DNA of 64,000 nucleotides from Arcobacter venerupis. Lineage in GTDB: Bacteria > Campylobacterota > Campylobacteria > Campylobacterales > Arcobacteraceae. Below are positions 34,799 to 55,882 of the stretch, piece after piece (the stretch's first letter is position 1; every line of letters begins with the position of its first letter). The stretch spans positions 496,001-560,000 of the forward strand of contig NZ_CP053840.1 in NCBI RefSeq assembly GCF_013201665.1. Direction: 5' to 3'. A model generated the notes under the pieces. That model was given only the letters and a program-made list of their open reading frames with translations, was not told where the DNA came from and did no database searches. The position numbers and the translations under genes are program-made.

Positions 34799-35701
34799 TT
34801 ATTTCAAATCTTTTTCATAAGAGGGATAAAGATTTATAACTGTTCTTTCAAACTCTTCTTTAAACATAGTAAAATCTTTAAACTCAGCGGGGATTGGTTT
34901 ATTTAATATTTCAAAAATATCTAATCCTTGTTTTGCACTATTTGACAAGATATTTTGCAAATATTCTAGATATGAAATAGTCTCTTTTATTGGTTCTTTT
35001 GTATTTGATGCAAGCCCATGTCCTGGAACTAAAATTGAATAATCAATTTTTTCTAATTCATTTAATGATTTTATCCAGTTTTGCATATTTGCATGGGGAG
35101 TTGTTGGTGTTCTTTTATTAAAAACTAAATCAGAAGCATAAAGAATTTTCGTATTTTCATCATAAACTGCAATATCACTTTGGGTGTGTCCATCTAAATA
35201 CAATACTTTTAATTTATAACCATCAAAGTCCAGTGTTTTTGTTGTAAGTATTTGATTTGGAGCTTTGATTTTTGTGCCATTCATTCCATCATGTACTAAA
35301 TTAACTAAATTTAATATATATAAATCACCATTAGTTTCTATCTCATTTTTAGTGAATTCAGTTGCAAAAATATCACTTGAAGTAAAAGCAATATTCCCTA
35401 AAAAATGATCAGGATGATGGTGCGTATTTAAAATATATTTTATTGGTTTATCTGTGATTTTTTCAATTTGTTTTTTTACTTGTTCCCCATATAATCTTGA
35501 ACTTCCAGTATCTATTAAAATAACACTATCTTTTGTGATAATAAAAGAAGTATTTGCAATATCTCCACCATTTTCTTTTGAGAAATACTCCTCTTTTCCA
35601 TAAAAATAGTAACTATTTTCAGATAATTTTATTGGTTTTAATTTGTAATCAAAGGCTTTTAAAGAAGAAAAAATTATAAAAATAAGAAATAAATATTTCA
35701 T
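34799..35701 (-). CDS. Quinoprotein-associated zinc metallohydrolase (SoxH-related MBL fold)
   Basis: A 300-residue exported metallo-beta-lactamase-fold hydrolase with a signal peptide (MKYLFLIFIIFSSLKA). Metal ligands: THHHPDH, the His in LDGHTQSD, Asp in YASDLVF and the His in LVPGHG. Together with the SoxYZ-like gene (4-bp overlap) it matches the 'quinoprotein relay system' pair found beside PQQ dehydrogenases such as the Pseudomonas ped cluster. Its substrate is not known; a thiol ester or persulfide on the SoxYZ-like carrier has been suggested by analogy with SoxH. Confidence 0.83.
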   Translation of the reverse strand: MKYLFLIFIIFSSLKAFDYKLKPIKLSENSYYFYGKEEYFSKENGGDIANTSFIITKDSVILIDTGSSRLYGEQVKKQIEKITDKPIKYILNTHHHPDHFLGNIAFTSSDIFATEFTKNEIETNGDLYILNLVNLVHDGMNGTKIKAPNQILTTKTLDFDGYKLKVLYLDGHTQSDIAVYDENTKILYASDLVFNKRTPTTPHANMQNWIKSLNELEKIDYSILVPGHGLASNTKEPIKETISYLEYLQNILSNSAKQGLDIFEILNKPIPAEFKDFTMFKEEFERTVINLYPSYEKDLK

Positions 35702-36438
35702 TTTTTTTGTTCTTTATAAATATTGCCATCATTATCAGCAAATTCTATATTTAAGTCATCAATTTTATTTTTACTTTCAAATATAAATCTAGGATTTTCA
35801 CTAATTACAGAAGTAGATTTTATATTTGCTAAAACCTTATCTTTATCTTTTATAATTATTGAATTTATATAAAATTCATTTGTACCAAATATTAATCCTG
35901 TTTCCATTGGATGAAATATTGAAGTTTTTATTCTATTTCCCTCTTCTTTTTGGAATAACTCTGTTTTTATCTTACCTAGAAGTTGTTCGTATTCATAATT
36001 ATTTGAACTTTGTGCAGAAATGTCACAACCTCCACCATTACTTTTTATATTTATACTTCCCACATGCCAAATATTTTTATCATCCAAAATCAAGGCCCTA
36101 AGAGGAGTTTCTTGAGCTATTTTAATATTTGTTGAAATCACGGGAAGAAGATGTTCTAGTTTTATATCAATAATATTAGCAATAGGATTATAATCTGCAA
36201 ATAAAACCAATCTTTTTGCATTTAAAATTTTCATCCCATTAACATATATAGGAACTTGAAAAGGGTTGTCAGCAAAATCAGGAACTTTTAGAATAATATT
36301 ATCATCATCAAAAATATATTTATCATTTTGAATGATAGATTTTATCAAATCATCAAAAATAGGAGAAATAATAGGATTTTTATTTTGTGCATTCAGTGAG
36401 ATACTGAATAGTATAAATAATAAAAATATATGTTTCAT
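35698..36438 (-). CDS. Quinoprotein-associated SoxYZ-like carrier protein
   Basis: A 246-residue exported protein with signal peptide (MKHIFLLFILFSISLNA). The first half corresponds to SoxY (YVNGMKILNAKRLVLFADYNPIANI; ending in GGGCDISAQ, with a Cys equivalent to the carrier Cys of SoxY), and the second half is SoxZ-like (IKTSIFHPMETGLI, INSIIIKDKDKVL, ENPRFIFE). This fused carrier is specific to quinoprotein gene clusters. The Cys is not at the extreme C-terminus as in SoxY but inside the fusion. It heads a two-gene operon driven by an array promoter (36469-36501). Confidence 0.83.
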   Translation of the reverse strand: MKHIFLLFILFSISLNAQNKNPIISPIFDDLIKSIIQNDKYIFDDDNIILKVPDFADNPFQVPIYVNGMKILNAKRLVLFADYNPIANIIDIKLEHLLPVISTNIKIAQETPLRALILDDKNIWHVGSINIKSNGGGCDISAQSSNNYEYEQLLGKIKTELFQKEEGNRIKTSIFHPMETGLIFGTNEFYINSIIIKDKDKVLANIKSTSVISENPRFIFESKNKIDDLNIEFADNDGNIYKEQKK

Positions 36439-36468: not shown

Positions 36469-36501
36469 ATTATATAGCTTCTTTATAGCCTGATTGTAGC
36501 C
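36469..36501 (-). promoter_or_regulatory. Array promoter of the SoxYZ-like/metallohydrolase operon (2 repeats)
   Basis: On the minus strand two 7-mers, GGCTACA (36495-36501) and GGCTATA (36484-36490), are 11 bp apart. Nine bp later comes TATAAT (36469-36474). Same layout as six other promoters in the island. A third copy (AGCTATA) overlaps the -10. Confidence 0.8.
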
Positions 36502-36518: not shown

Positions 36519-36551
36519 TGCTAAATTCAGGCTATAAATAAAAGATACTAT
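36519..36551 (+). promoter_or_regulatory. Array promoter of the small membrane ORF at 36591 (2 repeats)
   Basis: TGCTAAA (36519-36525) and GGCTATA (36530-36536), 11 bp apart; then 9 bp and TACTAT (36546-36551). It is back to back with the minus-strand array promoter, with 17 bp between the two repeat blocks. Confidence 0.75.
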
Positions 36552-36590: not shown

Positions 36591-36725
36591 ATGTTTAGTC
36601 AATTTAAATTTACATTAATATTCTTATTTCTTATATTTTGGCAAGCTATTTCTTTAATTATAGGAATTAAATCATTTCCAAGTGTTATAGATATTGTATT
36701 GAATCTTTTTAATTTAATAAAATAA
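36591..36725 (+). CDS. 44-residue membrane peptide; possible remnant of a TauC-type ABC permease
   Basis: An ORF of 44 codons with a strong ribosome site (TAGGAGAAAAATG) and its own array promoter. It encodes one hydrophobic helix (FTLIFLFLIFWQAISLIIGI) followed by KSFPSVIDIVLNLFNLIK. The order helix-FWQ-..-FPS-.. resembles the start of NitT/TauT-family permeases, and codons after the stop (EILVRNLHISRKK-like, interrupted) may continue the similarity. It is therefore either a real small membrane protein kept under the regulon promoter or the 5' remnant of a lost transporter gene. Confidence 0.5.
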   Translation: MFSQFKFTLIFLFLIFWQAISLIIGIKSFPSVIDIVLNLFNLIK

Positions 36726-36796: not shown

Positions 36797-36873
36797 TGCT
36801 ATAATTAAGCTATATTAAGGCTATAAATAGGCTATTTTAGGGCTATCTTGAGGCTATATCCATGAAGTATAAT
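36797..36873 (+). promoter_or_regulatory. Array promoter of the porin gene (6 repeats)
   Basis: Six direct copies of GCTAT start at 36798, 36809, 36820, 36831, 36842 and 36853, an exact 11-bp period. The last 7-mer GGCTATA (36852-36858) is followed by 9 bp and a perfect TATAAT (36868-36873). This is the longest array in the island. No -35 box is needed if the last copies occupy that place, as in PhoB-dependent promoters. Confidence 0.85.
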
Positions 36874-36930
36874 AACGAATGCGGAATTTGTTTTGGTCAA
36901 ATTCTTGTAAAAATTATTTAAGGATTGGAA

Positions 36931-38124
36931 ATGAAAAAATTAGGCTTATTAAGTTTTGCTGCGTCAATTGCTATCACTTCTGCGATGGCTGGAAATGTTG
37001 AACTTTTATCAGATTTAAAAATTTATGGTGATGCTGAAGTAAGAGGAATATCTGTAAAGGGTGACACCGATACTGCAAAAAAAGATAAACAAGTACTTGA
37101 TTCAAAAATAAGAGTTAATTTAGATTTCAAAACACTTGAGGGAATTGTTATTCATTCAAGGATAGAATTGAAAAACGATGCTTGGGGTGATAACGATAAT
37201 GATACTTTTACTTGGGATGAAGCAAATGTTTTAGTACCTTTTGATGAAAATAAATTTTTATTAGCAGGACGAGTAAATGATACTTATGGAACACCTTTTT
37301 ATGGTTCAAATGGAGATAAAATTGATTTAGCTCTTGTTGGTTATAAACCAGTTGAAAATGTTTTATTATATGCCTTTGATTTTAAAGCTGTTGAGGGTAA
37401 AAATAATGACCAAAATACATTCTTAGGTGTAAATAGTACGGGTACAGGTGATTTTGATGCATATTCAGTTGGTGGACAAGTTACTCTTGATAAATTAGTT
37501 GTTGGTGGAAGATATGTGTATTTACAAAATAATACAGAAACATCGACTGGTTCAACTATATATAATGATGCAACAAGTCATATGTTTAATGCTTTTGCAA
37601 TGGGAGAAATCGCTGATTTAGATTTACAAACACAAATAGAAAAAAGAGTTGGTGATAAAACAAACTCTTCTGTTGGACAAAGTGATGAAAAAATGTTTGG
37701 AGCTTATTTAAAAGTTGCTAAACAAATAGATAATTTTAATATTGGATTTGCAGCACTAACAACAAAAGATGGTTATGTTTCAGGGGAAAACTTACCAGTT
37801 ACATATTTAACAAATGATGATTTAGGAACAGCTTCACTTGATAGAGTTGGAAAATATGGAGATACTACTTTAGTAGCTTTAAATCTTGCATATGATGTTT
37901 CAAATAAATTAACACTTGAAGGAAATTTAGGACAACATAATATTAAAAATGCAACTTTTAGTAGTATTGATAAAGATTTAAAAATCACAGAATATGACGC
38001 AGGATTAGCTTATAAACTAAATAAAAGTGCAACAGTTAGTTTAAGATATGCACTAGGTACTTTTGATGTAAGTAACTTAGATGATATGCAAACAGTTGTT
38101 GCAGCGGTTAATATTAACTTCTAA
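36931..38124 (+). CDS. Outer-membrane porin under array control
   Basis: A 397-residue protein with a signal peptide (MKKLGLLSFAASIAITSAMA) and a mature part of alternating hydrophobic/polar strands ending in an aromatic residue (VAAVNINF), typical of a beta-barrel porin. I start at ATG 36931 with AAGGA upstream; a TTG six bases earlier is in the ribosome spacer. The six-copy array promoter ties it to the alcohol-oxidation genes; it probably lets the alcohol substrate through the outer membrane (inference). A terminator follows. Confidence 0.82.
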   Translation: MKKLGLLSFAASIAITSAMAGNVELLSDLKIYGDAEVRGISVKGDTDTAKKDKQVLDSKIRVNLDFKTLEGIVIHSRIELKNDAWGDNDNDTFTWDEANVLVPFDENKFLLAGRVNDTYGTPFYGSNGDKIDLALVGYKPVENVLLYAFDFKAVEGKNNDQNTFLGVNSTGTGDFDAYSVGGQVTLDKLVVGGRYVYLQNNTETSTGSTIYNDATSHMFNAFAMGEIADLDLQTQIEKRVGDKTNSSVGQSDEKMFGAYLKVAKQIDNFNIGFAALTTKDGYVSGENLPVTYLTNDDLGTASLDRVGKYGDTTLVALNLAYDVSNKLTLEGNLGQHNIKNATFSSIDKDLKITEYDAGLAYKLNKSATVSLRYALGTFDVSNLDDMQTVVAAVNINF

Positions 38125-39274: not shown

Positions 39275-39310
39275 TGCATTCCCAAGCTGGAGCTAGGGAA
39301 CGAGAAAAAT
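39275..39310 (+). repeat. REP-like palindromic repeat, copy 1
   Basis: GCATTCCCAAGCTGGAGC followed by TAGGGAACGAG: imperfect palindrome with the TTCCCAAGCT..AGCTTGGGAA core, one mismatch in the right arm. Lies in a 596-bp gene-free region that holds four such elements. Confidence 0.75.
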
Positions 39311-39530
39311 TAGAAAAATAAATTACTTATAAAATGTAAAATACAAACTATATCAACATCAATATTTATATTTATATCGATGCAAATGACTTTATTAAAT
39401 TTTTTTAATAATTCATAAATAAATTTAATTTTTTTCATATCTTCTCCTTCCTTTGAAATTTGAGAATTATTGCACTAAAATTTCAAGGTAATAGAAACAC
39501 GAAAGAATTTAAATTTAATTATTTAAAAGT

Positions 39531-39566
39531 ATACATTTCCAAACTAGAGCTTGGGAATGAAAAAAG
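39531..39566 (+). repeat. REP-like palindromic repeat, copy 2
   Basis: ATACATTTCCAAACTAGAGC then TTGGGAATGAAAAAAG: a diverged copy with the same order (stem, loop, GAxG-like tail). A short reading frame starting at 39460 runs across it and is not taken as a gene. Confidence 0.7.
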
Positions 39567-39620
39567 CAATATGCAAAAAATGTATATTGCAAATTCTGAC
39601 AAACCTGTAAGTTTTTATAG

Positions 39621-39660
39621 TTTTCCCTCGTTCCCAACGTCCACGTTGTGAATGCATATA
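39621..39660 (-). repeat. REP-like palindromic repeat, copy 3 (opposite orientation, variant core)
   Basis: Read on the minus strand: GCATTCACAACGTGGACG then TTGGGAACGAGGGAAAA. Same flanks (GCATTC and GGGAACGAGG) but the core is AACGTGGACGTT, a second sequence type of the element. Confidence 0.72.
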
Positions 39661-39714
39661 AAAACTAAATAAAACAAAAGAAATAGGAAAAACTAAATAT
39701 AAAATTTCTGATTA

Positions 39715-39754
39715 AAGTATACATTCCCAAGCTAGAGCTTGGGAACGAGGAAAA
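39715..39754 (+). repeat. REP-like palindromic repeat, copy 4 (most complete)
   Basis: AGTATACATTCCCAAGCTAG then AGCTTGGGAACGAGGAAAA: perfect stem TTCCCAAGCT / AGCTTGGGAA. It ends directly against the stop codon of the DUF302 gene and may serve as its transcription end. Confidence 0.8.
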
Positions 39755-40216
39755 TCAATCTAAACTTTTTATAATCAAATTCTTTAAACGCTCATTTATT
39801 TTATCAGCAATTTTATCACCACTTTTAAAAGCTTTATATTTTTTATATGAGATGAAATTTTCATTTTTACTATTTTTATAAACAGATAATCCAAGTGGGC
39901 AGTAGTTTATGTTATTGGGATTTTCTTCTACCATTTGAAAAGTAAAACTACTTTTACAAATACCTAGATTTATTCCCTCTTTTAAAACACCTTTTTTTTC
40001 AAGAAGAGCAGCTACTTCATTTGTGGATTTTGCAAGATTTAATTCATACACAATAGTAAAACCCTCAAAATTTATCTCATCTTTTAACTTCAATAAAATC
40101 TCTTGAAAATCTCTATTATCTGTTTTAATTATGAAAATATTTTCATTCTCAATTATTTTATAATTTGCCTCAATAAAACAAAAAAAAGTTGAAAAAAGTA
40201 AAATGATTTTAATCAT
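39755..40216 (-). CDS. Exported DUF302-domain protein
   Basis: A 153-residue protein with signal peptide (MIKIILLFSTFFCFIEA). The mature part is one DUF302 domain: EGFTIVYELNLAKSTNEVAALLEKKGV, LGICKSSFTFQMVEENPNN, YCPLGLSVYKN. DUF302 is a small alpha/beta domain of unclear function, sometimes near redox proteins; Cys87 and Cys106 could form a disulfide or bind a ligand. It has no array promoter. Confidence 0.75.
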   Translation of the reverse strand: MIKIILLFSTFFCFIEANYKIIENENIFIIKTDNRDFQEILLKLKDEINFEGFTIVYELNLAKSTNEVAALLEKKGVLKEGINLGICKSSFTFQMVEENPNNINYCPLGLSVYKNSKNENFISYKKYKAFKSGDKIADKINERLKNLIIKSLD

Positions 40217-40323
40217 TTATTTTCCCCTTAGAACTAATATTTTATAAGTATATTCTTTATTTATAGCTTGAATTTAGCACAAAATAGTTGGATATTAAAC
40301 AAGTTTTAACTTCTACTTCAAGT

Positions 40324-40728
40324 ATTGCAATTCAAACAAATTAAATGTAGCAATAGAAGCTTCCATAGCTGGCTTTTGGAAATGGGTTTGTTGTAGATGA
40401 AGTAAAAAAATTAGCTGGAAAAAAACAAACAAGTTTAACAGATAGTAATCAAAGCGTTGAAATAAGTATAAATAGTGTAAATTTTATTTCACAAGATATT
40501 TTAAATTCAAGTAAAAAACTATCATGAGTTTAATCTGATATGGAAGAGATAAATAACTCAATTGGGAAAATTTATAAAAATTTTAATCATAGTAATCATA
40601 GTAATAATTTTATTGAAAATAAAAAAACAAGTTTTAAGGATTTGATTAATGGAATAAATAGTATTGAAGAAATTCAAAAACAGTTAGAAATGCTAGAGAA
40701 GAATTTTAATTTTAGTTTCTGGTTTTAA
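40324..40728 (+). pseudogene. Decayed methyl-accepting chemotaxis protein fragment
   Basis: Translated in changing frames the stretch reads like the tip of a chemoreceptor signalling domain: IAIQTN, then IEASIAG, GFVVDEVKKLAGKKQTSLTD, then NSVNFISQDILNSSKKLS before a stop, and an ending with EEIQKQLEMLEKNF. At least one frameshift (near 40370) and an in-frame stop (near 40525) interrupt it, and the upstream sensor part is gone. The 62-codon frame at 40540-40728 is its tail, not a separate gene. Confidence 0.7.
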
Positions 40729-40792
40729 ATCAACAGAGTGGATAATAAATAGAGTAAAGAATAGAATTCTATTCTTTACATTTTATAAATTT

Positions 40793-41197
40793 CTAATCTT
40801 CAGGAAGAGTTTCTAACCAACTATAAATAGCCCATAATGCAGAATTTGGGATTATATCTTCTGGAAATGGCGGCATAAATACATTTCCATTTCTAACAGC
40901 ACCACTTCTAACCATTCCTAAAAAATATGTATCATCTCCATCTGTAAGTAATCTTAAATCAGGTGCAATACCTCCTGATTTAGCCCCTAATCCATGACAT
41001 CTTGCACAATTTTGGTTAAATGCAGTTTTTCCAATTTCAATAGCTTTTTCATTTCCTGAAAAAGGGTTTGTTACTACCTCAATACCAATTTCTGGTAACC
41101 CCTTTGTATCAACTTTTTGAGGAGCAGCATCCCCATGTCCAAACATTAAAGTTGTAGTTGCAATTAATGCACAGATTGATTTAGTAAAAATTTTCAT
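40793..41197 (-). CDS. pedF: Cytochrome c550, PedF/ExaB-like electron acceptor of the alcohol dehydrogenase
   Basis: A 134-residue exported c-type cytochrome (signal about 1-22, ending LMFG) with one haem motif CARCH and a probable Met ligand in VFMPPFPE. The order KVDTKGLPEIG, GNEKAIEIGKTAFNQNCARCHG, GGIAPDLR, RNGNVFMPPF is that of the c550 PedF family, the direct electron acceptor of PQQ alcohol dehydrogenases. I start at 41197 (AAGGAATAGTATG); a longer reading from 41239 would begin upstream of its own array promoter. It is divergent from exaA. Confidence 0.88.
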   Translation of the reverse strand: MKIFTKSICALIATTTLMFGHGDAAPQKVDTKGLPEIGIEVVTNPFSGNEKAIEIGKTAFNQNCARCHGLGAKSGGIAPDLRLLTDGDDTYFLGMVRSGAVRNGNVFMPPFPEDIIPNSALWAIYSWLETLPED

Positions 41198-41225
41198 ACT
41201 ATTCCTTTTTATAAATTTTGAGGAA

Positions 41226-41258
41226 AGTATATCAATCATTTATAGCCTAATTATAGCC
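41226..41258 (-). promoter_or_regulatory. Array promoter of the cytochrome c550 gene (2 repeats)
   Basis: On the minus strand GGCTATA at 41252-41258 and 41241-41247 (11-bp period), then 9 bp and TATACT (41226-41231). The position shows that the start codon at 41239 cannot be used from this promoter. Confidence 0.8.
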
Positions 41259-41288: not shown

Positions 41289-41321
41289 GGCTAAACTCAG
41301 GCTATATTTCTATATTAGAAT
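41289..41321 (+). promoter_or_regulatory. Array promoter of exaA (2 repeats)
   Basis: GGCTAAA (41289-41295) and GGCTATA (41300-41306), 11-bp period, then 9 bp and TAGAAT (41316-41321). A weaker GGACTAT lies two periods upstream at 41267. Divergent from the cytochrome array with 30 bp between blocks. Confidence 0.78.
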
Positions 41322-41395: not shown

Positions 41396-43288
41396 ATGAA
41401 GAATTTATTAAGTAAAGCAGCAGTCGTTGCAATTCTTGGTTTAACAAGTTGTCAAGTTTCTTTTGCGAGTACTACAGATAATAAAAGTACAAAAGTTACT
41501 TGGGAAGATATTTTAAATGATCAAAATACACCTAAAGATGTATTGATGTATGGAATGGGTCCTAAAGCACAAAGGTATTCAACCCTTAGTCAAATCAATA
41601 CTAAAACAGTAAAAGATTTAGTACCAGTATGGAGTTATTCTTTTGGTGGTGAAAAACAAAGAGGACAAGAATCACAAGCATTAGTTCATGATGGTGTTAT
41701 TTATGTGACAGGTTCATATTCAAGATTATTTGCAATAGATGCAAAAACTGGAAAAAGACTTTGGGAATATAATCATAGATTACCAGCTGAAATTAGACCT
41801 TGTTGTGATGTTGTAAATAGAGGTGCTGCAATATATGGAGATAAAGTATTTTTTGGAACTTTAGATGCTGGAATGGTTGCATTAAATAAAGATACTGGAA
41901 AAGTAGTTTGGAAAAAAAGATTTGGATATGACAATAATCCAGATAAAGGTTATGAAGATGGTTACACAATGACAGGTGCACCAACTTTAGTAAAAGATCA
42001 AAAAACTGGAAAAGTTCTATTAATTCATGGTTCATCAGGAGATGAATTTGGAGTACTAGGGAAATTATTTGCATTAGACCCAGATACGGGAGAAGAAGTT
42101 TGGATGAGACCTTTGGTTGAAGGACACATGGGAAGATTAAATGGTAAAGAGTCAACTCCTTCAGGAGATGCAAAAGCCCCTTCTTGGCCAAATGATGAAA
42201 AAAGTGAAACAGGTAAAAAAATATCTTGGAGTCACGGTGGAGGAGCTCCATGGCAAAGTGCTAGTTTTGATGCAGAAACAAATACAATCATAATTGGAAC
42301 AGGTAATCCTGCACCTTGGAATACTTGGGAAAGAACTGCTGACGGTGGAGATCCAAGAGATTGGGATAGCTTATACACATCTGGGCAAATTGGAATTGAT
42401 CCAACAACTGGAGATATCAAATGGTTCTATCAACACACTCCAAATGATGGATGGGATTTCTCAGGAAATAATGAGCTAGTTTTATTTGAATATAAAGATA
42501 ATGGTAAAACAGTAAAAGCAACTGCACATGCTGATAGAAATGGATTCTTCTATGTAATTAATAGAGATGAAATGCCTAAAGCTGAAAAACAAAGAGAAGA
42601 CCAATCACGAAGATTTATTAGAGCATTCCCTTTTGTTGATAAAATTACTTGGGCAAGTCATATAGATCAAAAAACAGGAAGACCAGTTGTAGATATTAAT
42701 CAATATCCTCCTTTACCAAAAGAGGGTGAAGATAAAGGTGCACCAATAAGAGTTTCTCCTCCATTCTTAGGTGGGAAAAACTGGAATCCTATGGCATATA
42801 GTCAAGATACAGGATTATTTTATGTTCCTGCAAATGATTGGGAAGAAGATTATTGGACAACACCTATTCAATATAAAAAAGGTGCAGCATATTTAGGACA
42901 AGGATTTACAATTAAAAGAACACATGAAGATCATGTTGGTAATTTAAAAGCAGTAGATCCAGTTAAAGGAAATATTGTATGGTCTCATAAAGAGAAACTT
43001 CCATTATGGGCTGGAGTATTAGCAACAAAAGGTGGATTAGTATTTACTGGAACTAGTGATGGATTCTTAAAAGCATTTGATGCAAAAAATGGAAAAGAAT
43101 TATTTAAATTCCAAACTGGTTCAGGAATTGTTTCTTGCCCAATTACATGGGAAATTGATGGAGAACAATATATTGGATTATCAACAGGATATGGAGGAGC
43201 TGTACCTTTATGGGGTGGAGACATGGCTGAGTTAACAAAAACAGTTTCTCAAGGCGGTTCTTACTGGGTATTTAAGATAAAAAAATAA
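41396..43288 (+). CDS. exaA: PQQ-dependent alcohol dehydrogenase, calcium type (ExaA/PedE-like)
   Basis: A 630-residue periplasmic quinoprotein with signal peptide (about 1-25) and an eight-bladed propeller fold shown by repeated AxDxxTGKxxW motifs. The vicinal disulfide of this enzyme class is Cys136-Cys137 (IRPCCDVVNRG). The catalytic base is Asp354 in GWDFSGNN; the residue two further on is Ser356. Lanthanide enzymes (XoxF, PedH) have Asp there, so this is the calcium form. Absence of MxaF-type features and the GNPAPWN motif favour an ethanol-type dehydrogenase of broad primary-alcohol range. Preceded by an array promoter; a hairpin separates it from the pentapeptide gene. Confidence 0.93.
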   Translation: MKNLLSKAAVVAILGLTSCQVSFASTTDNKSTKVTWEDILNDQNTPKDVLMYGMGPKAQRYSTLSQINTKTVKDLVPVWSYSFGGEKQRGQESQALVHDGVIYVTGSYSRLFAIDAKTGKRLWEYNHRLPAEIRPCCDVVNRGAAIYGDKVFFGTLDAGMVALNKDTGKVVWKKRFGYDNNPDKGYEDGYTMTGAPTLVKDQKTGKVLLIHGSSGDEFGVLGKLFALDPDTGEEVWMRPLVEGHMGRLNGKESTPSGDAKAPSWPNDEKSETGKKISWSHGGGAPWQSASFDAETNTIIIGTGNPAPWNTWERTADGGDPRDWDSLYTSGQIGIDPTTGDIKWFYQHTPNDGWDFSGNNELVLFEYKDNGKTVKATAHADRNGFFYVINRDEMPKAEKQREDQSRRFIRAFPFVDKITWASHIDQKTGRPVVDINQYPPLPKEGEDKGAPIRVSPPFLGGKNWNPMAYSQDTGLFYVPANDWEEDYWTTPIQYKKGAAYLGQGFTIKRTHEDHVGNLKAVDPVKGNIVWSHKEKLPLWAGVLATKGGLVFTGTSDGFLKAFDAKNGKELFKFQTGSGIVSCPITWEIDGEQYIGLSTGYGGAVPLWGGDMAELTKTVSQGGSYWVFKIKK

Positions 43289-44054: not shown

Positions 44055-44087
44055 GGCTATATTCGGGCTATATTTGTACTATATAAT
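44055..44087 (+). promoter_or_regulatory. Array promoter of pqqA (2 repeats)
   Basis: GGCTATA at 44055-44061 and 44066-44072, 11-bp period, then 9 bp and TATAAT (44082-44087). It is the closest match to the consensus in the window. Confidence 0.85.
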
Positions 44088-47409: not shown

Positions 47410-48495
47410 ATGAACAAAGGCTTATTTGTACTAAAAGATTTATGTAAGAATTATGAAAATACACCCATATTAAAAAACATAAATTTGGATATATTTCAAG
47501 GAGAATTTCTTACACTTTTAGGCCCTAGTGGCTGTGGGAAAACAACAATTATTAGACTTCTAGCAGGATTTGAAAATCCTGATGCGGGAGAAATTCTTTT
47601 AGATGATAAAAATATCAATCATCTTCCCCCTGAAAATAGGGCAATAAACACCGTTTTTCAAAGTTACGCACTTTTCCCTCATATGAATATTTTTGATAAT
47701 GTTGCATTTGGTTTAAAAATGAAAAAAATGCCAAAAGAACAAATCAAAATAGAGGTAGAAAATGCCCTTTCTATGGTTAAATTATCACAACATATGTATA
47801 AAAAACCAAGTGAATTAAGTGGTGGACAACAACAACGGGTTGCAATTGCAAGGGCTGTTGTTAATAAACCTTTGATTCTTCTTCTTGATGAGTCATTAAG
47901 TGCTTTAGATTATAAGCTTAGAAAAGAGATGCAAATTGAGCTTAAAATGCTACAAAGAAAGCTAGGAATTACTTTTTTATTTGTAACCCATGACCAAGAA
48001 GAAGCTCTTTCTATGTCTGACAGAATTGTTGTTATGAATAAAGGAAATATTGAACAAATAGGGACTCCAAAAGAGATATATGAAGAGCCTAAAAGTCTTT
48101 TTGTAGCTCAGTTTATTGGAGAGGCAAACTGTTTTGAAACAAAAATTGTTGAGCAAAAAAATGAAGCAGTAATTTTAAAATATAAAGAAAAAATATTTAA
48201 TTTAAAAACAAAAAAAATATTTAATGAAACTTGTACAATTCTTATTCGGCCTGAAGATTTTAGAGTTGAAAAAAACTTTGAAGATGTAAAATCAAAAAAC
48301 TATTTTGTTGGAGAACTTGAAAATATTATTTATAAGGGAACTACGATTGATCTTTTAGTAAAACTAGAAGATGGAAAAGAAGTAATAGCAAGTGAGTTTT
48401 ATAATGAAGATAGTGATGCTTTAGGTTATAAAATAGGTTCGAAACTGTTTCTTTATTGGGTTGATGGTTGGGAGGTACTTTTAAATAATGAATAG
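47410..48495 (+). CDS. potA: Spermidine/putrescine-type ABC transporter ATPase
   Basis: A 361-residue ABC ATPase with a C-terminal TOBE domain (about 290-355). Walker A GPSGCGKTT, signature [14 protein letters not shown], Walker B LILLLDESLSALD (Ser-Leu in place of the usual EPLSALD Pro), switch His in VTHDQEEA. It starts a tight potABCD run. It is 85 bp behind pqqE without an array promoter, so it may have its own promoter. Confidence 0.92.
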   Translation: MNKGLFVLKDLCKNYENTPILKNINLDIFQGEFLTLLGPSGCGKTTIIRLLAGFENPDAGEILLDDKNINHLPPENRAINTVFQSYALFPHMNIFDNVAFGLKMKKMPKEQIKIEVENALSMVKLSQHMYKKPSELSGGQQQRVAIARAVVNKPLILLLDESLSALDYKLRKEMQIELKMLQRKLGITFLFVTHDQEEALSMSDRIVVMNKGNIEQIGTPKEIYEEPKSLFVAQFIGEANCFETKIVEQKNEAVILKYKEKIFNLKTKKIFNETCTILIRPEDFRVEKNFEDVKSKNYFVGELENIIYKGTTIDLLVKLEDGKEVIASEFYNEDSDALGYKIGSKLFLYWVDGWEVLLNNE

Positions 48496-49327
48496 ACTCT
48501 CTTTATTTGCAAAAATATCAGTATTTTCAGTTGTATTTTGGCTTTTATTATTTGCATTATTGCCAAATTTACTTGTATTTGTAAGTAGTATTTTAACAAA
48601 AGGTGATAATGATTTTTTAATTTTTACAGCATCAAGTGAAAGTTATTTAAAACTTCTTAATCCTACATATTTATCTGTATTTTTAGATTCATTATATATT
48701 GCAGTTGTTACAACTTGTATTACACTTGTTTTGGCTTACCCTTTTGCTTATATTATTGCAACTGCTCCAAAAAAGTTCAAGTTTTTACTTTTATTGCTTG
48801 TAATAATTCCATTTTGGACAAGTTCCTTAGTGCGAACATATGCCTTAATAGCAATTTTAAAGACAAATGGTCTTTTGAATACTTTTTTAATATGGCTTGG
48901 AATAATCAATGAACCTTTACAAATCATGTATTCACAAACAGCTGTATTTATAGGAATGGTTTATACATTACTTCCTTTTATGATTTTACCTTTATATGTA
49001 TCTATTGAAAAAATTGACTTTAGATTAGTTGAAGCTGCAAGAGATTTAGGTGCATCAAAATTAAATACTTTTAAAACTATTATTATTCCTTTATCTCTTC
49101 CTGGAATAATTGCTGGAAGTACTTTAGTATTTTTACCAGCACTTGGAATGTTTTTTATACCAGATATTTTAGGTGGAGCAAAAGAGTTAATTATTGGAAG
49201 TTTTATACGAAATCAATTTTTACAATTTAGAGATTGGCCATTTGGATCAGCAGCATCGGTTGTTTTATTAATCATAATGTTCATTATGTTAGCTCTTCTT
49301 GCAAAAGTTCAAAAGGATAATAAATGA
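48488..49327 (+). CDS. potB: Spermidine/putrescine-type ABC transporter permease PotB
   Basis: A 279-residue permease with about six helices and the EAA coupling loop VEAARDLGASKLNTFKTIIIPLSLPGIIAGS. The conserved IPFWTSSLVRTYA before it is typical of PotB/PotH. Overlaps potA by 8 bp and potC by 4 bp. Confidence 0.93.
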   Translation: MNRLSLFAKISVFSVVFWLLLFALLPNLLVFVSSILTKGDNDFLIFTASSESYLKLLNPTYLSVFLDSLYIAVVTTCITLVLAYPFAYIIATAPKKFKFLLLLLVIIPFWTSSLVRTYALIAILKTNGLLNTFLIWLGIINEPLQIMYSQTAVFIGMVYTLLPFMILPLYVSIEKIDFRLVEAARDLGASKLNTFKTIIIPLSLPGIIAGSTLVFLPALGMFFIPDILGGAKELIIGSFIRNQFLQFRDWPFGSAASVVLLIIMFIMLALLAKVQKDNK

Positions 49328-50079
49328 GAAAACTATATTCAAGTTTTATTTATACTCTTTTATATTTTCCAATAATCGTATTAATAATTTATTCATTTAA
49401 TAGTTCAAAATATAGTGTTGCATGGAAAGGTTTTAGCACTATATGGTATGAAAACTTAATGTCATATGATTCACTTCTTGAAGCTGCATGGCACTCAATT
49501 AGTGTAGCTTTTGTATCAGCAATAATTGCTACAATTCTGGGAACTCTTGGTGCTTTAGCACTTTTTAGATATGACTTTTTTGGAAAAAAATTAATGCAAT
49601 CATTGGTTTATGTTTTAATCATGTCCCCTGAAATTGTGATGGGAATTTCACTTTTAATGTTATTCGTTTTTATATCTTTGCCGTTAGGATTTATTACATT
49701 GCTTATTGCTCACATTACATTTTGTTTGCCTTTTGTAATTGTAACTGTAATGGCTAGATTAAATGGCTTTGATAAAAATATTATAGAAGCTGCAAAAGAT
49801 TTAGGAGCTTCGGAATTTATTACATTTACAAATATAATTTTACCAAATATCATCCCTGCAATCATTGCTGGATTTTTATTAAGTTTAACCTTGTCATTTG
49901 ATGATGTGATTATTAGCTTTTTTGTAACAGGACCTGATTATGAAATTTTGCCATTAAAAATATATTCAATGGTAAAACTAGGAGTTAAACCTGAGATAAA
50001 TGCACTTTGTACAATCATGTTTATTTTCACATTGCTTATGGTATTATTTACCCAATTTTTAATTAAGGAGAAAAAATGA
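49324..50079 (+). CDS. potC: Spermidine/putrescine-type ABC transporter permease PotC
   Basis: A 251-residue permease: IVLIIYSFNSSKYSVAWKGFS at the start, SPEIVMGISLLMLF, and the EAA loop IEAAKDLGASEFITFTNIILPNIIPAIIAG followed by SFDDVIISFFVTGP, all standard for PotC/PotI. Translation is coupled to its neighbours by ATGA overlaps. Confidence 0.93.
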   Translation: MRKLYSSFIYTLLYFPIIVLIIYSFNSSKYSVAWKGFSTIWYENLMSYDSLLEAAWHSISVAFVSAIIATILGTLGALALFRYDFFGKKLMQSLVYVLIMSPEIVMGISLLMLFVFISLPLGFITLLIAHITFCLPFVIVTVMARLNGFDKNIIEAAKDLGASEFITFTNIILPNIIPAIIAGFLLSLTLSFDDVIISFFVTGPDYEILPLKIYSMVKLGVKPEINALCTIMFIFTLLMVLFTQFLIKEKK

Positions 50080-51092
50080 AATTAATTTTTATTTTTATGT
50101 CACTTGTTTTGACACTTTTCGCAAATGAAAAAGTGCTTTATGTATATAACTGGTCTGAATATATGCCCGATTCTGTATTGAAAAACTTTACAAAAGAAAC
50201 AGGTATAAAAGTTAAGTATTCAACTTATGATTCAAATGAAGCTATGTATGCAAAAATCAAAACGATTGGTAGTTCAAGTTATGATGTTATAGTCCCTTCA
50301 ACTTATTATGTAAATAAAATGAGTAAAGAAAATTTGTTAGTAAAACTTGATAAATCAAAACTTCCAAATTATAAAAATCTTGACAAAAAACTTTTATCAA
50401 GACCATTTGACCCAAATAATGATTATTCAATTCCTTATGTATGGGGAAGTACTGGAATTAGTTATAACGCTAATTTAGTAAGTGAAAAAATTGATTCATG
50501 GAAAAACTTATGGAGTCCAGAATATAAAAATAGCATTCTTTTAAATGATGATATGAGAGAAGTTTTTGGAATAGCACTTAAAATTTTAGGATATTCTTCA
50601 AACTCAACAAATCCAAAAGAGATAGAAGAAGCTTACAACAAATTAAAAGAACTTTTACCAAATGTAAAAATGTTTTATTCAGAATCTCAAAAACAAGTGT
50701 ATTTAAATGAAGAAGTAAAACTTGGAATGAACTTTAATGGTGAAGGATTTATGGCAAATGAAGAAAATGAAGCTATAAAATATATCTATCCAAAAGAGGG
50801 TGCTCTTTTATGGATTGATTCTTTAGTTATTCCAAAAGGTGCAAAAAATATTGATAATGCTTTAGCTTTTATCAATTATTTATTAAAACCTGAAGTATCA
50901 AAAATAATTAGTGAAGAGATTGGTTATGCCTCTCCAAATGCAAAAACTTTAGAACTTTTAGATGAAAAAACAAGAAATAATAGAATGATTTATCCAAATG
51001 AAGAAGATTTAATAAATAGTGAACTTCAATTAGATGTAGGTGAAGCTTTACCTGTATATGAGAAATATTGGGAAAAGTTAAAAACTAACTAA
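50076..51092 (+). CDS. potD: Spermidine/putrescine-type periplasmic binding protein PotD/PotF
   Basis: A 338-residue binding protein with signal peptide (MKLIFIFMSLVLTLFA). The start of the mature part, KVLYVYNWSEYMPDSVLKNFTKETGIKV, and YDVIVPSTYYVNKM, VWGSTGISYN and LLWIDSLVIPKGAKN identify the PotD/PotF family. The Trp and acidic residues that grip the polyamine are in place, so a polyamine is the likely ligand. Ends in a bidirectional terminator. Confidence 0.92.
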   Translation: MKLIFIFMSLVLTLFANEKVLYVYNWSEYMPDSVLKNFTKETGIKVKYSTYDSNEAMYAKIKTIGSSSYDVIVPSTYYVNKMSKENLLVKLDKSKLPNYKNLDKKLLSRPFDPNNDYSIPYVWGSTGISYNANLVSEKIDSWKNLWSPEYKNSILLNDDMREVFGIALKILGYSSNSTNPKEIEEAYNKLKELLPNVKMFYSESQKQVYLNEEVKLGMNFNGEGFMANEENEAIKYIYPKEGALLWIDSLVIPKGAKNIDNALAFINYLLKPEVSKIISEEIGYASPNAKTLELLDEKTRNNRMIYPNEEDLINSELQLDVGEALPVYEKYWEKLKTN

Positions 51093-51103: not shown

Positions 51104-51135
51104 AAAGCTATCTTCAAAATATTGAAGATAGCTTT
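51104..51135. terminator. Bidirectional terminator between potD and the response regulator
   Basis: A 14-bp perfect stem AAAGCTATCTTCAA / TTGAAGATAGCTTT with a 4-nt loop, touching the stop codon of the convergent regulator gene; T on one side and A on the other. Confidence 0.82.
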
Positions 51136-51794
51136 TATTCTGGTCTTTCAATCATATAACCACTTCCTCGAATATTTTTAATAAAATCTTCCCTTAAAAC
51201 GGTTTTTACTCTATTTACTTCAGCTCTTATTGTTGCATTATCAATATAATCATCATTCCAAACATAGGTTCTAAACATATCGTATTGAACAACTAAACTT
51301 CTATTTAAAGCAAGAAGTTCAATTATTTGAAGTTGCCGTTTGGGTAAAATATGAGGCTCGTTGTTGAATAAAAGTGTCATGTTTTCTGAGTCAAAACTAT
51401 AATGTTTTGATAATCTTTTATGTCTTTGTGGAACTATTCTTGTTTTTAGAATTTTATTAATTCGTAATGTTAGCTCTTTTAAATGAAATGGTTTTTTTAA
51501 ATAATCAAAACATCCCAAATCAAAAGCTCTTGAAATCTCTTCAATATCAATTAGTGCAGAAATATAAATAGTTGGAACCATTCTTTTTTGTTCATGTAAT
51601 CTTTCTAAAATTTCGAAACCATCAATATCAGGAAGATTTATATCTAAAATTAATAAATCAAATTTTTCTTTTTCTAAAATTTCTAATGACTCCATTCCTG
51701 TTTTTGCACTTATTATCATATGTCCTGTGGAAGCAATGTATTCTGTTATCATTTCATTTAACATAATATCATCTTCAACTAATAAAATTTTCAT
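51135..51794 (-). CDS. OmpR/PhoB-family response regulator, candidate regulator of the array promoters
   Basis: A 219-residue regulator: receiver domain with Glu7/Asp8/Asp9 pocket, phosphoacceptor Asp51 (FDLLILDINLPDIDGFE) and Lys in LKKPFHL; C-terminal winged helix (about 125-217) with LPKRQLQIIELLALN, NATIRAEVNRVKTVL and IRGSGYMIERPE. OmpR-class wings bind tandem direct repeats, PhoB with an 11-bp period. Its ATG overlaps the end of the FIST kinase gene by 4 bp. The genes are divergent from the four-copy array of the aldehyde dehydrogenase. Control of the island is inferred. Confidence 0.92.
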   Translation of the reverse strand: MKILLVEDDIMLNEMITEYIASTGHMIISAKTGMESLEILEKEKFDLLILDINLPDIDGFEILERLHEQKRMVPTIYISALIDIEEISRAFDLGCFDYLKKPFHLKELTLRINKILKTRIVPQRHKRLSKHYSFDSENMTLLFNNEPHILPKRQLQIIELLALNRSLVVQYDMFRTYVWNDDYIDNATIRAEVNRVKTVLREDFIKNIRGSGYMIERPE

Positions 51795-53698
51795 AATACT
51801 CCTTTAAAAGTGTAAGTGAATGAAGCCCAATTTTCACCTGATTCTAGTTTTATTCCAACATTTTCTTCACTACAGATTCTTTTTACTAAATTTAATCCAA
51901 GTCCAAAACCTTCTTTTGAAACTTCTTCTCTATAATACTCTTCAAATATTTTTTGAGGATCTAAAATCTGAGCAGAACGACTCTCTATAATAAAATCACA
52001 ATCATTTTTTGAAACTCTTAGAATTACATATATTGTCTCATTTGGTAAAGTATATTTAATAGCATTTGTAAGATTATTATCAACAATTCGTTGAAGTTTT
52101 ATTTCATTAAAATTTAAAATGATTTCATCAAAGTTGCAGATAAATTCAAATTTCGATTTAAACTTAATAGCTGTTTGTGTATAAAAATCAATTCTACTTC
52201 TTACAAAATCTTTAATATTTATTCTATGAGTTGCTGGATTTACTTGGTCTTTTTTTACTAAATAACTTAAATCATCATAAATACTAAAGATATTTTTCAT
52301 AGCAATTTCAATATTGGTTAGATATTTATTTTTCCCAAATTGAATTTCAAACATATCAATATTTCCCATTATAATTGATAATGGAGTATTTGTTTCATGA
52401 ATAGCATATTTTAAAAATTGTTTTTGAGAAGTAATTAAATTTTGAGCATAAGTATTTCCAATTTCTAACTCTTTTGATTGTTTATTATAATCTTGAGAAG
52501 ATTGTTGAATCAGGTGTGTGAGTGCTTGTAAACTTCGCGCATGATCACTTAATGTTGTATCTTTTAACTCTTTATCATTATCTTCATCATCATTTTCTAT
52601 CTCTTTTTCACTAAGTGCAAGTACTGTTAGTGTTTGATTAAGTAACTCATTATGGTCATGGTGATGATAAAATTCACCATATGTAAAAAATCCAGCTGTT
52701 GTTGCAATTTGTGAAAAAGGGCTAATTTCAACATCTATAAGATTTGGCATATATCTTCTTCTTGCCATACATGCGTAAATAAAAAACGATTCTGTATTTT
52801 TTATTTTACATTTGTTAAATAAAGATTTTAAGGGATTATTCATCATTAGTTCAACATTCCCAAAACCTAATTTTACAATATCACCTTTATGTAAGTTTCC
52901 AGCAAAACTTAAACTTCCATCTTCATGTTTAGCAATAACTGCACGTGCTAGTGGAATATTGTTCTTTTGAACAATTAATGGAAACTCTATTCCCGTTGCT
53001 GGAAGCGATTTAGCAACATAAGTTCCTAAATATTTTTCATAAAAATCAAGAGGAGTTAATCCAGCAATTTTATAGACTCTATTTCCTTCAACTTCCTCAA
53101 TTTCATGCTCTATTCCAATTGGAGACCAGTTAAAATTGTAAGCATTACATACTTTTAAATCATCTGAATTAAAAGATACTCCAACTGAACCTCTTGTTAG
53201 AATATTATTTTGAGATGAAATAAAAGTTTGAGTAAAATGAGCATTATCTCCAGCCATTCCACCTGAAACCAAAACACTACTATTAATTGATGCAATTCCA
53301 TTTAAAAATTCTTCCCCGTTTGTTGTTCCTCCATCTGTGAATGTTAATAATAGTTTTGTATTTTCACAACATAAAGTTTGAGCAAGTAATACACCATTTT
53401 GAAAAGAGTCTTCTTCGTCAATATGAATTGTTTTTAATGTAGTTCTTTCAAAAGTAGAGATTGAAATTACTGTTTTAAGTGTAGTAATCTCAGCATTGTT
53501 TATCTCTCCATCTGTTGAAGAACCAATACAAATAGCATGTGGTAGTTGTTTTGTAAGAATATTTAATATCTCTTCTAGGATATTTTTTTTATCTCCGCAA
53601 AATATCTGAACTAATATGTTTTTTTCATGCTTGAATAATGAAAAATCTATTAATTCATCTAATGGTTTGGTGTTTAGTGTGTAATTATATGTTTTCAT
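51791..53698 (-). CDS. FIST-domain sensor histidine kinase
   Basis: A 635-residue cytoplasmic kinase without membrane helices. FIST N (about 25-225; AICIGSSTDGEINN, LLLTFTDGGTTNGEEFLNG, SGGMAGDNAHFTQTFI) and FIST C (about 225-370; LTPLDFYEKYLGTYVAKSLPATGIEFPLIV, ACMARRRYM) form a putative small-ligand sensor. A coiled coil leads to HisKA with phosphoacceptor His434 in an unusual H-box HETNTPLSII (HELRTPL is usual) and an HATPase domain (NNLTNAIKY, GFGLGLNLVKRI). It pairs with the downstream response regulator. The ligand is unknown; an alcohol, aldehyde or acid would fit the island. Confidence 0.9.
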   Translation of the reverse strand: MKTYNYTLNTKPLDELIDFSLFKHEKNILVQIFCGDKKNILEEILNILTKQLPHAICIGSSTDGEINNAEITTLKTVISISTFERTTLKTIHIDEEDSFQNGVLLAQTLCCENTKLLLTFTDGGTTNGEEFLNGIASINSSVLVSGGMAGDNAHFTQTFISSQNNILTRGSVGVSFNSDDLKVCNAYNFNWSPIGIEHEIEEVEGNRVYKIAGLTPLDFYEKYLGTYVAKSLPATGIEFPLIVQKNNIPLARAVIAKHEDGSLSFAGNLHKGDIVKLGFGNVELMMNNPLKSLFNKCKIKNTESFFIYACMARRRYMPNLIDVEISPFSQIATTAGFFTYGEFYHHHDHNELLNQTLTVLALSEKEIENDDEDNDKELKDTTLSDHARSLQALTHLIQQSSQDYNKQSKELEIGNTYAQNLITSQKQFLKYAIHETNTPLSIIMGNIDMFEIQFGKNKYLTNIEIAMKNIFSIYDDLSYLVKKDQVNPATHRINIKDFVRSRIDFYTQTAIKFKSKFEFICNFDEIILNFNEIKLQRIVDNNLTNAIKYTLPNETIYVILRVSKNDCDFIIESRSAQILDPQKIFEEYYREEVSKEGFGLGLNLVKRICSEENVGIKLESGENWASFTYTFKGVL

Positions 53699-53789: not shown

Positions 53790-53844
53790 TGCTATACTCA
53801 TGCTATACTATGGCTTTATTCATGCTATACTTATGATGTAGAAT
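53790..53844 (+). promoter_or_regulatory. Array promoter of the aldehyde dehydrogenase (4 repeats)
   Basis: TGCTATA, TGCTATA, GGCTTTA and TGCTATA start at 53790, 53801, 53812 and 53823: exact 11-bp period. Nine bp later TAGAAT (53839-53844). It lies in the 221-bp gap divergent from the FIST kinase gene. Confidence 0.83.
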
Positions 53845-53919
53845 TTCAGTATGTGAAAAGTTAAGTTAATAAAATTATTGACACTTTTTAAAATATTAAT
53901 TAATAAAAAGGATATTAAA

Positions 53920-55416
53920 ATGATTTACAGTAAACCAACATATAAAGCTCAATATGAGAACTTCATCGGTGGAGAATGGATTGCTCCAACAAGTGGTGAA
54001 TATTTCGATAATATTTCTCCTGTTGATGGTGAAATCTTAACAAAAATTCCAAGATCAAATGAAGCAGATGTTGAAGCTGCAATTCTTGCTGCTGATAAAG
54101 CATTTCAATCTTTTAAACACACATCAGTTGTTGAAAGAAGTAATCTATTAAATAAAATGGCAGATGCAATTGAAGCAAATTTAGAAAAACTTGCAATTGC
54201 TGAAACTTTAGATAATGGTAAAGCTATTAGAGAAACTTTAAATGCTGACGTTCCTTTAGTTGTTGATCATTTTAGATATTTTGCATCAGTAATTCGTGCA
54301 GAATCAGGAACAGTTTCAGATTTAGATGAAAATACAATTTCTCAAGAAATTCATGAACCATATGGTGTTGTTGCTCAAATTATTCCTTGGAATTTCCCAT
54401 TATTAATGGCTGCTTGGAAATTAGCTCCGGCAATTGCTGCTGGAAATTGTGTTGTTATGAAACCAGCAAGTGCAACTCCAATGTCAATTTTATTATTAAT
54501 GGAAGCAGTACAAGATGTATTACCAAAAGGTGTTATTAACATTATTAATGGTGCGGGTGGAAAAATTGGTAAATTCCTTTCAACTCATCCATTAGTTAAA
54601 AAAGTTGGATTTACTGGTGAAACTACAACTGGTCAATTAATTATGCAATATGCAACTGAAAATATTATTCCTTCAACTTTAGAACTTGGTGGAAAATCAC
54701 CAAATATCTTCCTAGAATCAATCATGGACGCGGATGATGAATTCTTTGATAAAGCAATTGAAGGTTTAGTACTATTTGCATTTAACTCAGGAGAAGTTTG
54801 TACTTGTCCATCACGTGCATTAATCCAAGAGTCAATTTATGAGCCATTTATGGCAAGAGTACTTGAAAGAGTTAAAGCAATTAAATTAGGAAATCCTTTA
54901 GATACAGAGTGTATGATGGGTGCTCAATGTTCTTTAAATCAAAAAGAAAAAATTACTGAATATATCAAAATTGGTAAAGAAGAGGGTGCTGAATTATTAA
55001 TTGGTGGAGATGTTTATGAATCGCAAACTAATCCAAATGGCTATTATATTCAACCAACACTATTCAAAGGTCACAACAAAATGAGAATTTTCCAAGAAGA
55101 AATTTTTGGACCTGTACTTGCTGTTACAACTTTTAAAGATGAAGAAGAAGCATTAGCAATTGCAAATGATACAATTTATGGATTAGGTTCAGGTGTTTGG
55201 TCAAGAGATGCTCATCAATTACATAAATTTTCAAGAGGAATAGAAGCTGGAAGAGTTTGGGTAAATTGTTATCATATATATCCATCACATGCATCATTTG
55301 GTGGATACAAAAAATCAGGTATAGGAAGAGAAACTCACATGATGATGTTAAACTCTTACAGACATACTAAAAATATTTTAACTTCTTACAATAAAAATAA
55401 ATTAGGATTCTTTTAG
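53920..55416 (+). CDS. exaC: NAD-dependent aldehyde dehydrogenase, ExaC/AldB-like
   Basis: A 498-residue aldehyde dehydrogenase. NAD site VAQIIPWNFPLLMAAWK and GFTGETTTGQ, general-base motif LELGGKSPN, catalytic Cys in FNSGEVCTCPSRAL. The GEVCTCPSR form and NPLDTECMMGAQ are typical of the acetaldehyde-oxidising AldB/ExaC group. I start at ATG 53920 (AAAAGGATATTAAA); a TTG 42 bp earlier is not supported. It should oxidise the aldehyde produced by ExaA to the acid in the cytoplasm. Under a four-copy array promoter. Confidence 0.94.
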   Translation: MIYSKPTYKAQYENFIGGEWIAPTSGEYFDNISPVDGEILTKIPRSNEADVEAAILAADKAFQSFKHTSVVERSNLLNKMADAIEANLEKLAIAETLDNGKAIRETLNADVPLVVDHFRYFASVIRAESGTVSDLDENTISQEIHEPYGVVAQIIPWNFPLLMAAWKLAPAIAAGNCVVMKPASATPMSILLLMEAVQDVLPKGVINIINGAGGKIGKFLSTHPLVKKVGFTGETTTGQLIMQYATENIIPSTLELGGKSPNIFLESIMDADDEFFDKAIEGLVLFAFNSGEVCTCPSRALIQESIYEPFMARVLERVKAIKLGNPLDTECMMGAQCSLNQKEKITEYIKIGKEEGAELLIGGDVYESQTNPNGYYIQPTLFKGHNKMRIFQEEIFGPVLAVTTFKDEEEALAIANDTIYGLGSGVWSRDAHQLHKFSRGIEAGRVWVNCYHIYPSHASFGGYKKSGIGRETHMMMLNSYRHTKNILTSYNKNKLGFF

Positions 55417-55478: not shown

Positions 55479-55498
55479 CGTTGTGTAAAGGATATAAA

Positions 55499-55882
55499 AT
55501 GTCAACACAAAGAGTAGATGTAACACCAGCAGCTGCTGAAGTTATAGAAAAATTAAAAGAGTTACATGGTGAATTAGTTTTTAATCAAAGTGGTGGTTGT
55601 TGTGATGGAACGGCTCCTATGTGTTATGAAAAAGGCGATTTTTATGTTCCTAGTCGTAATATAAAAATGGGTGAAATCTGTGGTTGTGAATTTTTTATAG
55701 ATAAAGATCAATTTGAGTATTTTAAACACTCTTTTATAACTATAGATGTAAGAGAAGAAAAAGCTGCTTTTGGAAACTCTTTTTCCTTAGAAATAGATTT
55801 AGGGTATCAATTTATTACAAAATCAAGAATTTTTACCGATGATGAATATAGACAGCTATTAGAAGAAGAAAAATTACAATAA
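55499..55882 (+). CDS. DUF779 protein, partner of AldB-type aldehyde dehydrogenase
   Basis: A 127-residue Cys-rich DUF779 protein: LVFNQSGGCCDGTAPMCYEKGDF, GEICGCEFFIDKDQFEYFKH and an EIDLGYQFITKSRIF end. The family is found mostly beside AldB/ExaC-type aldehyde dehydrogenases, and its function is not established; the CC, C and CGC residues could bind a metal or redox centre. Start at ATG 55499 with AAAGGATATAAA; the longer reading adds six residues from a TTG inside the terminator region. Confidence 0.88.
   Translation: MSTQRVDVTPAAAEVIEKLKELHGELVFNQSGGCCDGTAPMCYEKGDFYVPSRNIKMGEICGCEFFIDKDQFEYFKHSFITIDVREEKAAFGNSFSLEIDLGYQFITKSRIFTDDEYRQLLEEEKLQ

Follow-up and report, generated by a model that had tools for sequence, protein, structure and literature searches.

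In this study we identified a two-component pair, a FIST-domain sensor histidine kinase with a co-encoded OmpR-type response regulator, which almost certainly switches on exaC and the surrounding alcohol-oxidation genes via a shared 11-bp repeat predicted to be bound by the regulator. The kinase probably senses the aldehyde itself. The window, i.e. the whole 64-kb stretch of DNA that was analysed (G000:C1:496001-560000), is part of a complete 3.2-Mb Arcobacteraceae genome.

Both open reading frames were confirmed, with an overlap of 4 bp between them. The regulator (51135-51794, minus strand, 219 aa) comprises a receiver with a DIN motif (Asp51) and a winged-helix DNA-binding domain, both above the Pfam cut-off (Response_reg PF00072, 90.5 bits; Trans_reg_C PF00486, 37.3 bits). 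The kinase (51791-53698, minus strand, 635 aa), here named FHK, is soluble and shows the domain order FIST_N, FIST_C, HisKA, HATPase_c. FIST PF08495 was matched with 123 bits, FIST_C PF10442 with 71 bits and HATPase_c with 41.5 bits (above cut-off), while HisKA, at 26.1 bits, was marginally below its cut-off of 26.9. By structure comparison the kinase half resembled solved histidine kinases (whole-kinase model, pLDDT 83). No transmembrane segment was detected in the kinase; the maximal 19-residue Kyte-Doolittle mean was 1.15, compared to a peak of 2.66 in the neighbouring membrane kinase (29174-30454), in agreement with the cytoplasmic location proposed in the initial annotation. The same annotation had described the H-box as atypical, which was not borne out: His434, in HETNTPL, was invariant in 67 homologues, one of them reading HETSTPL, and the box conforms to the H-E/D-x-x-T/N kinase/phosphatase motif (PMC12570481).

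Within the island (about 34.8-55.9 kb) the regulator was, as annotated earlier, the only one of the OmpR type; a second OmpR-type pair is located just beyond it (29174-31161). Orthologues of the regulator were 56-99% identical, every one adjoining the kinase, and the DNA-binding region ATIRaEvNR(V/L)K was kept across families. The nearest named relatives of the kinase were from Aliarcobacter MAGs. A repeat array was not found before the pair's own promoter. Between pqqE and the regulator lies a spermidine/putrescine-type ABC transporter operon (47410-51092), which adjoins the regulator also in G002 and not in most relatives. Furthermore, a second, paralogous FIST kinase-regulator pair (approx. 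50% identical) was present at loci L128-L134, with no exaC nearby.

The pair had been described as divergent from a four-repeat array, and this array indeed sits between the kinase gene and exaC. It consists of four direct repeats of 11 bp that share a GCTATA core (53790-53833, plus strand; units TGCTATACTCA, TGCTATACTAT, GGCTTTATTCA and TGCTATACTTA, period 11), followed by a -10-like TAGAAT at 53839-53844. The exaC-type acetaldehyde dehydrogenase gene (53878-55416, plus strand; Aldedh, 519 bits) likely has its true start at ATG 53920, giving 498 aa, and its product scored 840 bits against NF050026 ExaC, for which the cut-off is 900. A DUF779 protein (55481-55882, plus strand; Pfam DUF779, 123 bits) is encoded downstream of exaC in most genomes, as seen from synteny.

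The initial annotation counted seven promoters with shared arrays. The arrays proved real, while the number was eight in the window, i.e. exaC plus seven other promoters of the PQQ-alcohol-oxidation island, with eutB in addition beyond the island. The longest of the seven, six 11-bp repeats (36797-36862, plus strand) with a -10-like TATAAT 15 nt past the last GCTATA, precedes the gene of a 399-aa protein (36925-38124), which we judged to be porin-like with a signal-peptide-like start and for which no Pfam or NCBIfam match was obtained. Repeats at 36469-36501 (minus strand), of which the third unit overlaps a -10-like TATAAT, precede a SoxYZ-like gene (35698-36438, minus strand), and two repeats at 36519-36540 (plus strand) with a weak -10, TACTAT, precede a 44-aa ORF (36591-36725). 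Two repeats each were found before the gene of an uncharacterised signal-peptide protein (39755-40216, minus strand; repeats 40258-40279, minus strand), a c-type-cytochrome-like gene with a CxxCH motif (40793-41239, minus strand; repeats 41237-41258, minus strand) and the PQQ alcohol dehydrogenase gene exaA (41396-43288, TIGR03075 729 bits; repeats 41289-41310, plus strand). Two repeats and a degenerate third (44055-44076, plus strand) are positioned before pqqA (ATG 44128) and pqqBCDE. Several short inverted-repeat copies, variants of CATTCCCAAGCTAGAGCTTGGGAACGAG, were noticed at 39280-39750 between an LLM oxidoreductase gene and the signal-peptide protein gene, and an apparent decayed coding remnant of the methyl-accepting-chemotaxis type, with stops, at 40330-40730 between the latter and the cytochrome gene.

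A weight matrix trained solely on exaC promoters of other genomes was run over the 64-kb window and recovered all eight arrays; the sole extra match was an overlapping shifted register at soxYZ. The eight real sites scored 16-39, and 20 random sequences of the same size peaked at 10.6 or below except one at 23.5. Genome-wide, both exact GGCTATANNNNGGCTATA sites and 6 of the 8 sites with one mismatch fell in the island. At each of the eight window arrays a TANNNT hexamer began exactly 15 nt from the start of the last GCTATA (TAGAAT, TAGAAT, TATAAT, TATACT, TATAAT, TATAAT, TATACT and TACTAT), and when the best -10 was sought without a fixed distance, approx. 43 of 53 exaC promoters gave 15 nt. 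This spacing corresponds to that of an activator which binds at the -35 position.

The promoter pattern GCTAWAN5GCTATAN9TANNNT was searched in 104 Arcobacteraceae genomes. It was present in 55 of the 62 genomes with the pair and in 1 of the 42 without it (pair and pattern 55, pair only 7, pattern only 1, neither 41); in most of the 7 pair-only genomes arrays were visible and had been missed by the strict pattern. A reversed control pattern gave no match in the 104 genomes. As the matrix from other genomes had also found all eight arrays, we rejected chance as their origin. Arrays in genomes devoid of the pair had been named in the initial annotation as speaking against its proposal; with a single such genome the proposal was not refuted.

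The exaC promoters gave the same picture. All 59 that were examined in pair-bearing genomes carry 2-4 repeats. Fourteen genomes have kept exaC and lost the pair, and 13 of these promoters had no detectable array and were indistinguishable from shuffled sequence, the remaining one showing a degenerate array remnant. The 14 genomes form one clade and therefore represent a single loss, not independent ones; the co-occurrence counts are phylogenetically correlated, so that the evidence is weaker than Fisher p-values suggest. The pair and exaC are unlinked in G040 and G041, where exaC has nevertheless retained two repeats; the association thus cannot be due to linkage alone. The arrangement of regulator, kinase and exaC was kept throughout the family, including 31 pair-bearing genomes without exaA. 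In genomes with exaA the pqqBCDE genes usually adjoin the regulator, and the pair was present in 31/31 exaA genomes and 15/15 eutB genomes. Control of the arrays by the pair, formerly an inference, is thus strongly supported by co-occurrence and by the absent or decayed arrays of the pair-less clade, and we are highly confident that the regulator acts on the arrays, presumably by binding to them.

Outside Arcobacteraceae the pattern was found in 9 of 21 pair-bearing genomes versus 13 of 334 others, and full-length orthologues (52-62%) were present in relatives of Sulfurospirillum, Sulfurimonas, Sulfuricurvum and Sulfurovum. In Sulfurospirillum-like genomes the gene divergent from the pair encodes a 907-aa molybdopterin-dependent aldehyde oxidoreductase (MOP; NF045668, 1614 bits, cut-off 1100). 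Repeats of the form GCTATA(T/C)TCATGCTA, or close variants, were present at all 14 FHK-divergent MOP genes, with a TATAAT-like hexamer, by inspection, at the same 15-nt distance. In other genomes the pair is followed by a gene for an AFOR-type aldehyde oxidoreductase (Pfam AFOR_N/AFOR_C), in one case with repeats. From family knowledge we take the AFOR-type enzyme to be a putative tungsten enzyme and MOP to be a molybdenum enzyme. A Sulfurimonas-like exaC promoter, from a third family, reads GCTATTTAATCGCTATTTTTTAAATGTATACT with the same spacing. Altogether 51 of 66 pair-carrying loci have an aldehyde oxidiser within reach (exaC 36, MOP 13 and AFOR 3, with one locus falling under two headings); among the other loci, several are on short contigs, or have pqq genes or genes probably for molybdenum-cofactor maturation beside them. 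A GCTATACTGTTGCTATACT array was further observed, in two genomes outside the family, before a 129-aa ORF that has no family assignment (L238 3099, minus strand; L240 3156, plus strand).

In the window genome the clearest array outside the island is carried by eutB (ethanolamine ammonia-lyase). It was exact in only 4 of 15 eutB genomes, namely the window genome, G001, G019 and, from another genus, G090, and weak in 2 further ones, G031 and G032. As eutB turns ethanolamine to acetaldehyde, an array at this position fits the aldehyde link of the pair. Further pattern-bearing genes encode PQQ-system transport and propeller proteins. Within one genus, three genomes (L173, L174, L175) have the pattern before phosphate acetyltransferase, which suggests that the regulon there extends to acetate activation. 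The earlier suggestion that the kinase would sense an internal metabolite such as an aldehyde is supported, since the pair is associated with three unrelated aldehyde-oxidising enzymes. The conserved core is the pair and aldehyde oxidation; alcohol oxidation was added later, as judged from the 31 pair-bearing genomes without exaA.

The FIST sensor domain (52664-53614, minus strand; FIST_N residues 29-213, FIST_C residues 217-345 by Pfam) shows the three-repeat fold of the FIST family and belongs to it. With the domain model (pLDDT 92) the best solved fold was the FIST domain of human FBXO22 (Z 21.8, rmsd 3.2 Å, 259 residues aligned), followed by chorismatase (Z 12.9). VIA-align placed FBXO22 first with the whole-kinase model and with the FIST domain alone; Foldseek with the whole kinase returned only kinase domains at the top of the list. 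Cys310 (codon 52769-52771, minus strand) occupies PF10442 column 92, the same as FBXO22 Cys326, and Glu342 (codon 52673-52675, minus strand) column 128, the same as FBXO22 Glu362; both were invariant in 52 homologues. In FBXO22, aldehyde compounds react reversibly with Cys326 to give a hemithioacetal, a reactivity that is supported by Glu362 (PMC13316043; PMC11208438). The window kinase thus has the Cys and Glu of an FBXO22-like aldehyde-reactive FIST domain at these FIST_C columns. The equivalence of Cys310 and Cys326 is based on a shared Pfam model, to which both proteins map, and on the fold match. FBXO22 was not reached in a PDB profile search with the FIST alignment, and FBXO22 324-403 alone, a fragment in full agreement with the PDB chain, gave no significant hhalign or local alignment with the window kinase. 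Most other FIST proteins encountered likewise have residues corresponding to Cys310 and Glu342, among them proteins from Legionella and Azospirillum and some that have no known aldehyde-gene neighbours. By themselves they are therefore no proof of aldehyde specificity and may mark a general FIST property; they fit aldehyde-sensing chemistry and do not prove it. Sensing of the aldehyde through Cys310 is proposed only tentatively. More speculative, and in our opinion doubtful, is the idea that FIST was at its root an aldehyde-sensing domain, in which a conserved Cys-Glu pair reads aldehydes as a reversible hemithioacetal. Bacteria would employ it to turn on aldehyde detoxification, and it would have been retained in human FBXO22, the same cysteine of which was targeted with aldehydes in drug chemistry.

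We consider it likely that the pair is a dedicated aldehyde-responsive activator two-component system, and the evidence points, with similar strength, to an aldehyde as its signal. The N-terminal FIST domain of the cytoplasmic kinase would detect an aldehyde made inside the cell, here most likely acetaldehyde, plausibly as a reversible hemithioacetal at Cys310 aided by Glu342, like Cys326 and Glu362 in FBXO22. FHK would then phosphorylate the co-encoded regulator, which would bind the GCTATA-core direct repeats as at least two tandem subunits. With the last repeat at the -35 position, RNA polymerase would be recruited where a -10 box stands 15 nt from the start of that repeat, and the regulator would thus activate, not repress. 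The first target would be the aldehyde-oxidising enzyme, which is exaC here and, in relatives, an aldehyde oxidoreductase of the molybdenum or probably tungsten type. In genomes that have it, the aldehyde-producing route would be an additional target: PQQ alcohol dehydrogenase, cofactor synthesis, electron carriers, uptake and ethanolamine ammonia-lyase.

The pair could also control the arrays and sense a product of aldehyde oxidation (acetate, another carboxylate or acetyl phosphate) or its effect on the redox state. The pattern at the phosphate acetyltransferase gene in three genomes of one genus is in favour of this, and products and redox load are common to all the aldehyde oxidases. However, exaA and eutB yield acetaldehyde and not acetate, and a single redox carrier is unlikely when the regulator is shared by three enzymes that differ in electron acceptor (NAD for exaC; Mo and W enzymes by family knowledge). 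In Pseudomonas aeruginosa acetaldehyde, not acetate, was found to be a swarming signal downstream of ExaA (PMC8546858). We therefore regard product or redox sensing as unlikely.

Sensing of nitric oxide via heme, as in NosP, would tie alcohol oxidation to the respiratory state while the pair still controls the arrays. Heme binding and NO sensing have been reported for NosP FIST proteins (PMC12570481), and in Pseudomonas the NosP/NahK pair is encoded in the PQQ-alcohol cluster (PMC12997753). The match of our FIST domain to the NCBIfam NosP model was weak, 57.4 bits at a cut-off of 450, and the same genome encodes a further FIST protein with a higher score (112 bits); the kinase FIST was thus rejected as a NosP orthologue. 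From the sources consulted no heme ligand was identified in the FIST domain, and the regulated and neighbouring genes encode aldehyde enzymes, which argues against NO sensing. On the other side, a nosR-like gene has the pattern upstream in the related genomes G024 (L167, about 5620) and G023 (L171, about 5020), which may point to a connection with denitrification or NO. Overall we find NO sensing improbable, somewhat more so than product sensing.

Another regulator encoded elsewhere could bind the arrays, with the pair being a mere neighbour or acting on something else. In favour of this, a second OmpR-type pair lies just beyond the island, and 13 genomes outside the family have arrays, some probably by chance, and no full-length orthologue. 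Against this stand the co-occurrence over 104 genomes, the array decay after loss of the pair, the persistence in the unlinked G040 and G041, and the conservation of the array beside a non-homologous target in Sulfurospirillum-like genomes, which leave this explanation with very little probability. Periodic AT-rich signals of about 11 nt occur in Campylobacterota promoters, and TATA forms part of the repeat, yet an ordinary promoter periodicity was rejected as practically negligible because the GC opening each unit is its best-conserved part (2.6 bits per position), the reversed control was without matches, and the pattern is limited to few functionally related promoters.

FIST domains span bacteria to humans, with few ligands known. 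With the probably aldehyde-responsive pair described here, both the cis-element and the regulon of one FIST kinase lineage are now sharply defined, the regulon having aldehyde oxidation by different enzyme families as its common denominator. Together with the FBXO22 chemistry, this makes the question of the FIST ligand directly accessible to experiment, since the cysteine, a candidate ligand and a reporter promoter can all be named. A prediction also follows for how Arcobacter- and Sulfurospirillum-type bacteria control the use of alcohol, ethanolamine and aldehyde.

In the open-access literature we found neither a paper on this pair or on an aldehyde-sensing FIST kinase, nor a ligand or regulon assigned to the FHK lineage. 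The closest parallel is NosP/NahK (ErcS') in the Pseudomonas exa/ped cluster, which likewise encodes a FIST protein and a soluble kinase together with PQQ-alcohol-oxidation genes (PMC12997753). In Pseudomonas, however, the FIST domain and the kinase reside on two proteins, NahK is of the hybrid type and signals via HptB, and the regulators of the cluster are LuxR-type (AgmR/ErbR, PedR2). In the window system FIST and a simple kinase form one protein, and the partner of this protein is an OmpR-type regulator for which defined repeats are seen. Human FBXO22, an F-box protein, shares the FIST fold and the Cys and Glu at the same FIST_C columns; it is however a ubiquitin ligase receptor, and its aldehyde chemistry came to light through synthetic degraders, without an established natural aldehyde signal. 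PhoB/OmpR-type activators, to judge from PhoB and ArcA boxes, share with the window regulator and its predicted sites a winged helix, 11-bp direct repeats and a repeat at -35 upstream of the -10, and differ in repeat sequence (here a GCTATA core), sensor and regulon; the architecture and promoter logic of the pair are those of an ordinary OmpR/PhoB-type system. FIST sensor kinases, reportedly defined by Borziak and Zhulin in 2007, have the same FIST_N-FIST_C-HisKA-HATPase architecture as FHK, and the FHK lineage is set apart from them by its conserved cis-element and metabolic context.
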